From assembly GCA_035651955.1 (NCBI GenBank), contig DASRES010000045.1, positions 1 through 39,150 on the forward strand: DNA of 39,150 nt. Reading direction: 5' to 3'. The notes beneath the pieces were generated by a model. That model had not been told where the DNA came from. It saw only the letters and a program-made list of their open reading frames with translations, and did not search any database. The first letter of the stretch is position 1, and every line of letters starts with the position of its first letter. The position numbers and the translations under genes were made by a program. The DNA comes from Acidimicrobiia bacterium. Lineage in GTDB: Bacteria; Actinomycetota; Acidimicrobiia; IMCC26256; JAMXLJ01. Positions 7,948 through 11,648 of this stretch are shown piece after piece.

Positions 7948-9261
7948 CTACGACGGCGGCCCGAGCACACGGTCGAGGTAGGCGTTGCGGAACCGCCCGT
8001 CGGGATCGAGCTTCGCCCGCACCGCCTGGAAGCGTGCCCACTCCGGATAGCGCGGCGCGAGCGTCGCTGCCGTCTGGTAGTGCATCTTCCCCCAGTGCGG
8101 CCGGCCGCCGACGCGGTCCATGATGTCCTCGACGCCGCGGAAGTAGCGCTCGAACGGCGTCCCCGTCGGCAGGTGGCACGCGAGGTACGCGTTCTCGCGC
8201 CCGTAGCCGGTGCTGAGCGGGATGTCGTCCGGTCCGGTGACGCGCACCTCGACCGGGAAGGCGACCTTCAGGTCCTCGCGCTCGATCAGGTCGCGGATCG
8301 CGAGCAGGCACGCACCCGCTTCGTGGCGCGGCACCTCGTACTCCATCTCGACGAAGCGCACGAGCCGCGGCGTGCAGAACACCCGGTCGCTGCGGTCGAC
8401 CTTCTCGCTCCGGCCGACGTTCGCGACGACGAACTGCGCGAGTCGCGGGACGAGGCCGGGCGCGATCTGTCCGGCCCGGCACACCGCACCGAACAGGTAG
8501 TTCGTCATCAGGATCTCGTCACGCCACTTCTTGAACCCCTCCTTCGCGTGGACGGGGTCGTCGGTGCGGTTGTTGCACTTGACGGTCGCGACGTCGGTGT
8601 GCGGGAACCAGTACGCGTCGACGTGGTCGTTCGTCTCGACGATCGTGTCGAACCGCTCGAGCATCTCCGAGAGCGGCATCGGGACCTCGAGCGAGTGCAG
8701 CCGGAAGGCGGGCTCGCACTGCAGCGTCATCTTCGTCACGATGCCGAGCGCACCGAGGCCGATGCGCGCGCACGCGAACACCTCGGGCTCCTCGCGCTCG
8801 GAGCAACGCAGGAGCTCGCCGTCGGCCGTCACCATCTCGATCTCGCGCAGCATCGTCGCGAGCCCACCGAGCTTCAACGCGGTGCCGTGCGTCCCGGTCG
8901 AGAGCGCACCCGAGATCGTCTGCCGGTCGATGTCACCGAGGTTGGTGAGCGCGAGGTTCCTGATCGCGAGCTGCTGGTTCAGCTTCCACAGCGGGATGCC
9001 CGCCTCGACCGTGACCGTGTGCGCGTCGCCGTCGACCGCGACCACGCGATCGAGATGGCCGAGCCGCAACATGCGGCCGTCGGTGCACGCGGTGTCGGTG
9101 AAGGAGTGGCCCGACCCGACCGCGTGCACGGTCTGCCCCGCGTGCTTCGCGGCGCGCACCGCCTCGACGACCTCGAGCTCGCTCTCGGGATCGGTCACCG
9201 CGACCGGCTCGCAGCGTTGGTTGCGGCCCCAGTTCTGCCAGAACGTCGCGCCCTTCGCCAT
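7948..9261 (-). CDS. FAD-linked oxidase, L-gulonolactone / D-arabinono-1,4-lactone oxidase family
   Basis: 437 residues, a normal size. The N-terminal FAD-binding (PCMH-type) domain has VGSGHSFTDTACTDG, whose His is the usual covalent FAD attachment site, then ALTNLGDIDRQTISGALSTG and THG (about residues 50-130). The C-terminal ALO domain includes the substrate/FAD motif HWGKMH. Family members oxidise aldonolactones or alditols with oxygen as acceptor. ATG 9261 follows TACGCT (9268-9273) by 6 bases, so it is likely leaderless. Only 20 bp separates its end from the start of the PH/SHOCT gene, but that gene has its own -10 box inside this space. The true substrate could be a sugar alcohol. Confidence 0.88.
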   Translation of the reverse strand: MAKGATFWQNWGRNQRCEPVAVTDPESELEVVEAVRAAKHAGQTVHAVGSGHSFTDTACTDGRMLRLGHLDRVVAVDGDAHTVTVEAGIPLWKLNQQLAIRNLALTNLGDIDRQTISGALSTGTHGTALKLGGLATMLREIEMVTADGELLRCSEREEPEVFACARIGLGALGIVTKMTLQCEPAFRLHSLEVPMPLSEMLERFDTIVETNDHVDAYWFPHTDVATVKCNNRTDDPVHAKEGFKKWRDEILMTNYLFGAVCRAGQIAPGLVPRLAQFVVANVGRSEKVDRSDRVFCTPRLVRFVEMEYEVPRHEAGACLLAIRDLIEREDLKVAFPVEVRVTGPDDIPLSTGYGRENAYLACHLPTGTPFERYFRGVEDIMDRVGGRPHWGKMHYQTAATLAPRYPEWARFQAVRAKLDPDGRFRNAYLDRVLGPPS

Positions 9262-9267
9262 CGTCGA

Positions 9268-9273
9268 AGCGTA
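9268..9273 (-). promoter_or_regulatory. -10 box of FAD-linked oxidase gene
   Basis: TACGCT on the minus strand ends 6 bases before the ATG at 9261; no Shine-Dalgarno site is present. Confidence 0.45.
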
Positions 9274-9297
9274 CGACGAAGCTGCGAGAAAAGGCTC

Positions 9298-9326
9298 TTG
9301 ACCCTCTGCGCGCTCGTCCGTACCAT
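9298..9326 (+). promoter_or_regulatory. strong sigma70-like promoter (TTGACC-N17-TACCAT)
   Basis: TTGACC (9298-9303), a 17-base spacer and TACCAT (9321-9326) make the best complete promoter in the window. It fires into a stretch without a convincing reading frame, about 320 bp before uvrD2. Confidence 0.65.
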
Positions 9327-9332
9327 CGCCCT

Positions 9333-9600
9333 ACCGGTTCGGCTGGTCCGTTCGGTCGAACGCTCTGGTCGGTCGCTGTGGCGGCCGTTCGGGAGCGGCG
9401 ATGCGATCGGGCGAGTGGTCCCGGTGGAGCCACTGCCGTACGACGATCGGGTCTCGACCCGGTCGGCGTGGCCGAAGGTGCGACGTCCAGTCGGGCGGCG
9501 TGCCGGGCCGAGGCAGCGGTCGCGAAGGGGAGCCCCGAGGAGATCGGAGCTGCGACGCAGCGAAGACTACTCGGGGCCTCTTCGCGTCCCGGACGCCTGA
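9333..9600 (+). ncRNA. candidate structured small RNA or long leader
   Basis: The only gap over 300 bases (9262-9647). Downstream of the 9298-9326 promoter lie several hairpins: CGTTCG/CGAACG (9349-9362), a bulged GGC.AGTGG/CCACTGCC (9410-9437), CGGGTC/GACCCG (9448-9461), GCTGC-gac-GCAGC (9549-9561), CGAAGA/TCTTCG (9561-9584) and GCGTC-ccg-GACGC (9584-9596). Reading frames across it are Arg-rich and look like noise. The helicase gene downstream has its own -10 box, which argues for a separate transcript rather than a leader. I do not recognise the RNA family; ends are approximate. Confidence 0.4.
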
Positions 9601-9635
9601 CCGCGAGGGTCCACCGCCGTCACCGCGCGCGTCGG

Positions 9636-9641
9636 TACGGT
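9636..9641 (+). promoter_or_regulatory. -10 box of uvrD2-like gene
   Basis: TACGGT ends 6 bases before the GTG start at 9648, with no Shine-Dalgarno site; a leaderless start is likely. Confidence 0.45.
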
Positions 9642-9647
9642 CGGCCG

Positions 9648-11648
9648 GTGGTCGCGTCCGCCGCCGACTCGCTGCTGCAGGGCCTCGACCCGTCGCAGCG
9701 CGCCGCCGTCGTCGAACCGGCGCGGCCGCTCGCGATCCTCGCGGGCGCCGGCTCGGGCAAGACGCGCGTCCTGACCCGGCGCATCGCGTGGCACGCCGCG
9801 ACCGGGCGCATCGACGCGGAACGCGTCCTGGCGGTGACCTTCACACGCAAGGCCGCGCGCGAGCTCGTGCACCGGCTCGCCCGTCTCCCGATCGGCGGCC
9901 GCGTGACCGCCGGGACGTTCCACGCGCTCGCGCTCACCCAGCTGCGGCGGCGATGGCAGGAACGAGGACGGGTCCCGCCCGCACTCCTCGAACGCAAGGC
10001 GCGGATCGTGGTCCCGCTGCTCGTCGCGGACGGGTGGACGGGCGAGGCCGCGACCGAGCGCGCCGCCGACGTGGCGAGCGAGATCGAGTGGGCCAAGGCC
10101 CGTCTCGTCTCGCCCGACGGGTACGAGCAGGCAGCGCGCGACGCGGGACGCCAGCCCGCGATCGCGCCGTCCCGGCTCGCCTCGCTCTACGACGCGTACG
10201 AGCGCGAGAAGCACCGTCGCCGTCTCGTCGACTTCGACGACCTCGTCTGGTGGTGCGTGCGCGCGCTGGAGACCGACGGCGACTTCGCGGCGGCGCAACG
10301 GTTCCGGTTCCGGCACCTGTTCGTCGACGAGCTCCAGGACGTGACACCCGCTCAGTTCCGTCTCCTGCGCGCGTGGCTCGGCGATCGGGACGACCTCTGC
10401 GCGGTCGGTGATCCGGACCAGTCCATCTACCGGTTCGCGGGCGCAGAGCCCGACCACCTCACCCGGTTCGTCGAGCACTTCCCCGGCGGCAAGGTCGTGC
10501 GCCTCGAGGCGAACCACCGGTCCAGCGCGCAGATCGTCGACGCGGCCGCCGCCGTTCTCGGCCGCCGCGACGCGCATGCCGTCCGCACGCCGCGCGGCGA
10601 CGGCCCGCGTCCGACGCTGCGCGCCTACGCGTCGGACGCCGACGAGGCACGCGCAGTCGCGCGAGCGCTCCGCGACGCGCACGCGACCGGTGTGGCGTGG
10701 TCGTCGATGGCGGTGCTCTACCGCACGAACGCGCAGTCCGCGCTGTTCGAGGACGCGCTGGCCGCACAGCAGATCCCGTTCCGCGTCCGCGGCGGGATGC
10801 GGTTCCTGCAACGAGCAGAGGTCCGCGCGCTGCTCGACGGGCTCGAGGACGCCGCGCGACGCGCGCCCGGTCGCCCGTTCGCCGAGCACCTCGTCGACGT
10901 ACGAGCCGACGTCGACGCCCTGTCGCCCGAACGGCGCGAGCACGCCGACGCGCTCGTCACCCTCGGACGGGAGTACGTGGCGCACGACGGCGACGGCGGC
11001 ACGGTCGCCGGGTTCCTCACCTGGCTGCGCGCGACGCTGCGCTCCGACGACGGCGACCTCGCGTCGGGCGACGCCGTGGAGCTGCTGACGTTCCACCGCG
11101 CCAAGGGCCTCGAGTACGAGACCGTCTTCGTCACGGGCGTGGAACGGGGGCTCGTGCCCGTCGCGTACGCGTCGTCGCCGGTCGATCTCGACGAGGAGAG
11201 GCGCCTGCTGCACGTCGCCATGACGCGCGCCGGCACGGCGTTGCACATGAGCTGGGCCCGGACCCGCACGGTCGGGTCACGCGTGTCGGAGCGCGAGCCG
11301 AGCCCCTGGATCACGGCGCTTCGCGCCGCGGGCGTCGTGGACGACGCGGCGACGACGGCGTCGGCGCACGCGGGCACACGTCGAGCGTTGGGTGCGCGCG
11401 GACCCAGGCCGCGCGCCACCGACGACGCGCTGCTCACCGCGCTCCTGGAATGGCGGCGAGGCGTGGCGCGGGCCGCGGCCGTCCCCGTCGCGGCCGTCGC
11501 GAGCGACGCGACGCTGCGGGCGATCGCGACGCGCCGGCCGCGCTCGCGCGCCGCGCTCGCGTCGGTCCCCGGCCTCGGCCCTTGTCGCCTCGCCACCCAT
11601 GGCGAGGCGATCCTCCGGCTCGTCGCGGGGGCCCCGGCCGCCCGTTGA
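9648..11648 (+). CDS. uvrD2: ATP-dependent DNA helicase, UvrD2-like (SF1A)
   Basis: 666 residues. Superfamily 1A helicase motifs appear in order: Q-motif LDPSQRAAVV, Walker A LAGAGSGKTRVL, Ia VTFTRKAARE, Walker B FVDELQDVTPAQ, III AVGDPDQSIYRFAGA, IV LEANHRSS, V FHRAKGLEYETVFVTG, VI RRLLHVAMTRA. The C-terminus (about residues 590-666) resembles an HRDC domain, with SVPGLGPCRLATHGEAIL; the helicase-HRDC arrangement is that of mycobacterial UvrD2. It unwinds DNA in repair. The frame is open back to 9378, but that part is Arg-rich noise; GTG 9648 fits the family start and the TACGGT box. The symbol is given by architecture, not by alignment. Confidence 0.88.
   Translation: MVASAADSLLQGLDPSQRAAVVEPARPLAILAGAGSGKTRVLTRRIAWHAATGRIDAERVLAVTFTRKAARELVHRLARLPIGGRVTAGTFHALALTQLRRRWQERGRVPPALLERKARIVVPLLVADGWTGEAATERAADVASEIEWAKARLVSPDGYEQAARDAGRQPAIAPSRLASLYDAYEREKHRRRLVDFDDLVWWCVRALETDGDFAAAQRFRFRHLFVDELQDVTPAQFRLLRAWLGDRDDLCAVGDPDQSIYRFAGAEPDHLTRFVEHFPGGKVVRLEANHRSSAQIVDAAAAVLGRRDAHAVRTPRGDGPRPTLRAYASDADEARAVARALRDAHATGVAWSSMAVLYRTNAQSALFEDALAAQQIPFRVRGGMRFLQRAEVRALLDGLEDAARRAPGRPFAEHLVDVRADVDALSPERREHADALVTLGREYVAHDGDGGTVAGFLTWLRATLRSDDGDLASGDAVELLTFHRAKGLEYETVFVTGVERGLVPVAYASSPVDLDEERRLLHVAMTRAGTALHMSWARTRTVGSRVSEREPSPWITALRAAGVVDDAATTASAHAGTRRALGARGPRPRATDDALLTALLEWRRGVARAAAVPVAAVASDATLRAIATRRPRSRAALASVPGLGPCRLATHGEAILRLVAGAPAAR

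Follow-up and report, generated by a model that had tools for sequence, protein, structure and literature searches.

Introduction

Elsewhere in the actinobacteria the niche of 6S RNA is filled by Ms1 (PMC4191392, PMC9130861) or by CoRP (PMC11077062), both of which bind RNA polymerase. These RNA-polymerase-binding RNAs are encoded by single genes of ~230-500 nt (PMC4191392, PMC9130861, PMC11077062), and the Ms1 gene combines a sigmaA-like promoter with a putative terminator (PMC4191392, PMC9130861). It has been proposed that each bacterium has one abundant polymerase-associated RNA, which may escape searches (PMC11077062).

The window analyzed here is a stretch of 39,150 nt, contig DASRES010000045.1 of an Acidimicrobiia genome (GCA_035651955.1). 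Acidimicrobiia are common in soil, in the sea and in activated sludge, and few genetic tools are available for them. Judged from its sequence, the locus described below is a previously uncatalogued RNA of ~255 bases, with its own predicted promoter and an elaborate terminator-like hairpin, that is common to many Acidimicrobiia. A literature search, which did not extend to a 2017 survey of 224 candidate RNAs, returned nothing relevant on a uvrD-linked or Acidimicrobiia RNA.

The RNA gene and its promoter

The predicted gene and its surroundings are laid out as follows:

7948-9261, minus strand: FAD-linked D-arabinono-1,4-lactone oxidase, divergent, a neighbor only
9298-9326, plus strand: sigma70/sigmaA-type promoter of the RNA (-35 TTGACC at 9298-9303, spacer of 17 nt, -10 TACCAT at 9321-9326)
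9332-9588, plus strand: non-coding RNA gene, ~255 nt, with a predicted start at 9332-9334 (UACCGG) and a predicted 3' end at ~9583-9590
9332-9426, plus strand: long irregular hairpin at the 5' end, in which the first transcript bases form the closing pairs (UACCGG with CCGGUG); alike in most homologues, where it spans 60-165 nt
9429-9520, plus strand: middle domain closed by CCACUGCC/GGCAGCGG; optional, missing from the shortest homologue, L006
9521-9588, plus strand: 3' terminator-like hairpin with a conserved irregular upper helix; its outer stem and tail also occur in plain actinobacterial terminator hairpins
9533-9576, plus strand: core of the 3' hairpin, CCCCGAG-GAGAUCGGA-GCUGCGACGCAGC-GAAGACUA-CUCGGGG, with the tail UCGCGUC
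9618-9641, plus strand: separate leaderless promoter of the helicase, CGTCAC...TACGGT; the start codon, at 9648, comes 6 nt after its end
9648-11648, plus strand: UvrD2-like helicase (UvrD N, UvrD C and HRDC by domain assignment), outside the RNA gene

An earlier note on this DNA had called TTGACC-N17-TACCAT the best promoter of the window, and the comparison bears this out: the site is unique in the contig and conserved at 28 of 28 homologous loci. A promoter scan of 8500-10500 returned it as the single sigma70-like site (mean of 0.0 in shuffles). Of the 17 matches to TTGACN-N17-TANNNT in the 4.1-Mb genome it is the only one on the 39-kb contig, and another lies ~0.4 kb upstream of a 16S rRNA gene; the reversed control pattern has no match. 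At all 28 loci of the order the core ends 140-310 nt downstream of a TTGA(C/T)-type promoter on the same strand, whose boxes are 16-18 nt apart, and the strict TTGACN-type pattern is found at 25 of the 28, against 0.02 expected from shuffles. Kept immediately upstream of the -35 in L086, L098, L099, L149 and L197 is an AT-rich block, gtggataaccctgtggatttt, which resembles an UP element and suggests high expression.

The more than 300 bases beyond the promoter had also been described as lacking a credible frame, and indeed no credible gene was found among the reading frames of 9327-9647. The helicase frame is by chance open back to 9378, while similarity to helicases begins near 9660 and an in-frame stop separates RNA and helicase in 10 of 25 homologues. 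A conserved reading frame across the gap, which the note had named as evidence against an RNA, was not found in the homologous intergenic regions.

A covariance search of Rfam 15 at gathering thresholds assigned the RNA to no family, in agreement with the earlier failure to recognize one, and at E values up to 10 the sole weak matches were to microRNA models, which we took as noise. A tRNA/tmRNA search found none, and RNase P was rejected because the genome has a clear gene for it elsewhere, so that the stretch must be another RNA. 6S RNA (RF00013) was absent at its curated threshold from the window, its genome and 13 homologous loci, and from 197 of 198 genomes of the class. The lone above-threshold match (L274, G048:C52:15956-16130) has a U-run terminator and neighbors the gene of a 4Fe-4S protein. 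The assembly is 5% contaminated, and the match probably comes from a foreign contig.

The 3' hairpin

The bases at 9533-9539 (CCCCGAG) pair with those at 9570-9576 (CUCGGGG) in all homologues, enclosing a near-invariant upper helix with purine-rich internal loops (CCCCGAGRAG...RRYUACUCGGGG in short form). The full consensus reads CCCCGAG-RAG-NYY-(G)GA-stem-loop-GAA-RRY-UACUCGGGG, followed by the UCGCGUC tail. The earlier reading had missed this main terminator stem, as well as the breadth of the RNA's occurrence. Among the tight hairpins that it had listed, the one at 9549-9561 corresponds to the apical stem GCUGC-GAC-GCAGC, the one at 9561-9584 is not a conserved pairing and gives way to the outer stem, and the one at 9584-9596 can form but is not conserved.

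The compensatory stem changes for which the note had proposed a search are present in the homologous regions, where the hairpin is kept with covarying stems. The order set has 98.5% of its cells paired and 14 double-change cells, compared to 4.2 in shuffles; 9 of its 12 outer pairs are invariant and so neither support nor oppose the fold. In the class set of 68 sequences, partly selected by a pattern that fixes the outer pairs and leaves the inner stem free, 89.9% of cells pair and 57 double changes compare with 21.8 after shuffling; both counts were taken on related sequences. The inner stem covaries, including G-U changes, and its UUCG, GCAA and GAAA loops replace one another. High sequence identity across the order and a near-palindromic stem are also what would be expected if the hairpin were a DNA element, such as a protein-binding palindrome or a recombination site. 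This is extremely unlikely, however, as in the order the hairpin is always preceded on its own strand by a consensus promoter, RNA-type loops (UUCG, GNRA) are kept, and the changes in the inner stem are compensatory or to G-U.

No U-run follows the hairpin, and the terminator scan was negative. R1, the covariance model built on the 3' hairpin, gave weak matches across the phylum (E about 1e-3) that were discarded, being mostly plain hairpins of the form GGCCCCGG...CCGGGGCCUUYUCGCGUC, which we take to be the usual intrinsic terminators of the lineage. These GC-rich actinobacterial terminators (GGCCCCGG...CCGGGGCCUUCUCGCGUC) share their outer stem and UCGCGUC tail with the hairpin of the RNA, but carry a short loop where the RNA has an inserted irregular upper helix, fixed across families. 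We infer from this sequence likeness that the 3' hairpin terminates transcription.

Predicted fold of the transcript

The stretch 9333-9606 has a fold z-score of -2.80, and homologous bodies without the terminator average -3.2 against dinucleotide shuffles, with values below zero in 35 of 36. The 5' hairpin accommodates part of the pairing that the note had marked at 9349-9461, namely that falling within 9332-9426; the remainder lies outside it. In the middle domain L002 shows a compensatory change (CCACUACC/GGUAGCGG), and an eight-member group of homologues has 73 consensus pairs, 12 of them with double changes. The minimal member, L006, is reduced to a single 5' hairpin and the terminator hairpin. 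UUCG and GCAA caps are frequent in the bodies. Among 79 non-redundant bodies, 16 contain the hairpin-cap 8-mer CCUUCGGG (0.4 expected) and 17 contain CCGCAAGG (0.7 expected). Internal loops near the base of the predicted consensus fold measure ~4-6 nt per side; a large central single-stranded bubble was not seen.

Body length and sequence differ among families, as they do in base-pairing sRNAs, and several families have tandem duplicates. Together with the outer stem and tail that are shared with plain terminators of other actinobacteria, these features lend themselves to the main rival explanation, in which the RNA is an sRNA that reaches mRNA targets through variable loops and the 3' hairpin is merely a terminator or stability element. 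Speaking against it are the highly structured body, with few open stretches and stable tetraloop caps, and the position of the conserved part inside the hairpin helix, where conservation exceeds the needs of termination. We consider an sRNA of this kind possible, though rather unlikely.

Relationship to the downstream helicase

At 26 of the 28 order loci the helicase gene begins within ~40-210 nt of the RNA and runs in the same direction, and attenuators likewise place a terminator-like hairpin ahead of a gene. Both would fit a cis-acting leader of the UvrD2-like helicase, with the 9298 transcript crossing a regulated terminator into the gene. Beyond that terminator, however, the helicase has a separate leaderless promoter, and the -10 box that the note had placed at 9636 was recovered at 9636-9641. 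In at least five relatives (G012, G023, G009, G020 and G047) the helicase and its promoter are kept with no RNA between. L007 has the RNA in inverted orientation, with a divergent helicase; in L017 the next gene downstream of the RNA is convergent, and many class-level loci have convergent or unrelated neighbors, with the caution that class-level ORF calls are contaminated by antisense frames, which makes statements on neighbors in other families provisional. A conserved antiterminator pairing was not seen.

The separate and retained helicase promoter, the inverted RNA in L007 and the unrelated neighbors elsewhere indicate an independent RNA gene rather than a helicase leader. We therefore rejected the leader, which is very improbable given that the position upstream of the helicase is not constant and that the helicase promoter persists without the RNA. 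The earlier suggestion that the 9298 promoter serves a separate RNA is supported by the covarying hairpin in homologues and by a helicase promoter that stands apart and is kept where the RNA is absent. The stretch is almost certainly an independent, conserved non-coding RNA gene, whose expression we infer; its boundaries (as predicted ends), its independence from the helicase, its conservation and structure, and the absence of 6S RNA are well supported.

The helicase promoter is RecA-NDp-like in relatives. The motif TGTCR-N11-TANNNT lies between RNA and helicase at 11 of 28 loci in strict form and 16 of 28 in loose form, compared to 0.02 and 0.06 expected. Its spacing agrees with that of the RecA-NDp DNA-damage consensus, tTGTCRgtg-8 nt-TannnT (PMC5656591), through which PafBC acts (PMC6789036), and the copy in the window is spaced 2 nt longer than the consensus. 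Leaderless helicase promoters of the RecA-NDp/PafBC type were noted at 9618-9641 of the window and in the gaps of L004, L006, L012, L016, L018, L019 and L023, which suggests that the RecA-NDp/PafBC DNA-damage response may extend to the Acidimicrobiia. In L018 and L021 short repeats, GTTCCGGCGTTCGTTTTCCGCTGGATCGCCGGTAGAAGCACGCC, are inserted after the terminator and before the helicase promoter.

Distribution

A search of 60 relatives with 9262-9660 showed the core (~9532-9579) to be 75-100% identical in many of the order's families, with diverged flanks. R1 matched 34 of 58 genomes of the order and 76 of 296 of the class, mostly once per genome, and a pattern scan of named genomes found at least 119 stretches, nearly all in Acidimicrobiia, including Ca. 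Microthrix. The RNA was absent from ~40% of sampled order genomes and is thus not essential, with the reservation that some of these genomes are incomplete and that many of those sampled are MAGs, in which absence from a given genome can reflect incompleteness.

Matches outside the class were few: L063 and L064 (family f68, with a comparable promoter), families f75 and f88, and L122 and L139. The last two, from MAGs labeled Chloroflexi, have the hairpin GAGRAGCUGAGUAGG...GAAAGGUUACUCGGGG with TTGACA-17-TATNNT promoters 220-300 nt upstream, and this hairpin is possibly a relative of the RNA from outside the phylum. Matches in Flavobacterium, Desulfurococcaceae and Armatimonadota MAGs were taken as chance, and a MAG contig labeled 'Bifidobacterium breve', of the helicase-linked type, is probably a mis-bin.

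Two or three tandem copies, 285-330 nt apart, some near-identical, and of the variant GAGAGGG...CUCCCUC, were observed in L108, L118 and L120, and pairs at wider spacing in L100, L102 and L107. Some tandem copies adjoin the same bacterial PH-domain gene that is seen near loci of the order, a shared neighbor that suggests common descent of the tandem and order copies.

Discussion

The explanation that we favor, at a probability of roughly 60%, is a free-standing gene for a stable, trans-acting RNA that binds protein, with the transcription machinery as likeliest partner. We propose a stable protein-binding RNA because 6S RNA is missing from nearly the whole class and several features match those of the RNA-polymerase-binding RNAs of actinobacteria. 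RNA polymerase carrying the housekeeping sigma factor would start at 9332-9334 and make ~255 nt, stopping at a terminator hairpin, the upper helix of which would have been remodeled into the conserved irregular element. The transcript would fold into the 5' long irregular hairpin, the optional middle domain and the 3' hairpin, and would work as a stable, trans-acting RNA. For the near-invariant upper helix (GRAG...RRYUACUC) the simplest role would be that of a protein-binding site, and its partner would most likely be the transcription machinery, as with the 6S, Ms1 and CoRP RNAs. From the conserved hairpin it seems likely that the RNA binds a protein; that this protein is RNA polymerase, the leading candidate, is a tentative suggestion made by analogy. 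More speculative still, and unlikely as it stands, is the idea that the Acidimicrobiia RNA might be a further independent RNA-polymerase-binding regulator whose hairpin both terminates transcription and binds the polymerase or another partner.

A structured RNA that is found class-wide and missing from Rfam is a gap in the bacterial RNA map, and the Acidimicrobiia RNA is a concrete candidate polymerase-associated RNA for a class not covered in PMC11077062. With covariance models, 28 annotated loci and natural relatives that lack the RNA, the question is directly testable.

The RNA matches the Ms1/CoRP kind in size, single-gene layout, sigmaA-like promoter and terminator, and departs from it in its neighbors and, as far as the model matches and the predicted fold show, in sequence and the lack of a large bubble. 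Ms1 (MTS2823 in M. tuberculosis, scr3559 in Streptomyces) is likewise an RNA of the Actinomycetota, ~230-300 nt long, with a sigmaA-like promoter, a putative terminator and a long irregular hairpin, from a lineage without a recognized 6S RNA. Shared phylum, similar size, a long irregular hairpin at the 5' end, a sigmaA-like promoter and a terminator of its own, and the absence of 6S RNA from both lineages (PMC4191392, PMC9130861) would all be explained if the RNA were a true Ms1 homologue whose sequence similarity and gene order are no longer recognizable. This is improbable, however. The neighbor of the RNA is the UvrD2 helicase and that of Ms1 a HAD-IB hydrolase; HAD genes lie on other contigs of the genome, no homologue of the RNA was seen beside one, and identification as Ms1 by neighborhood was rejected. 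The predicted fold lacks a clear central bubble and the RNA has a unique conserved 3' hairpin, and no sequence link to Ms1 was found in an indirect comparison through models R1 and R2, which matched just a few genomes outside the class.

Like 6S RNA (RF00013), the RNA would be a stable structured RNA, and some members, such as L098, form a long irregular hairpin. RF00013 itself gives no match, however; the predicted fold has no large bubble, and its 5' end pairs internally and not with the molecule's 3' end. The tandem copies in L108, L118 and L120 recall the duplicated 6S RNAs of some firmicutes. CoRP of Corynebacterium is set apart by its description, being ~500 nt long, located among tRNA genes and shown to bind RNA polymerase (PMC11077062), but it resembles the Acidimicrobiia RNA as a lineage-restricted RNA of an actinobacterial group without Ms1 and 6S.
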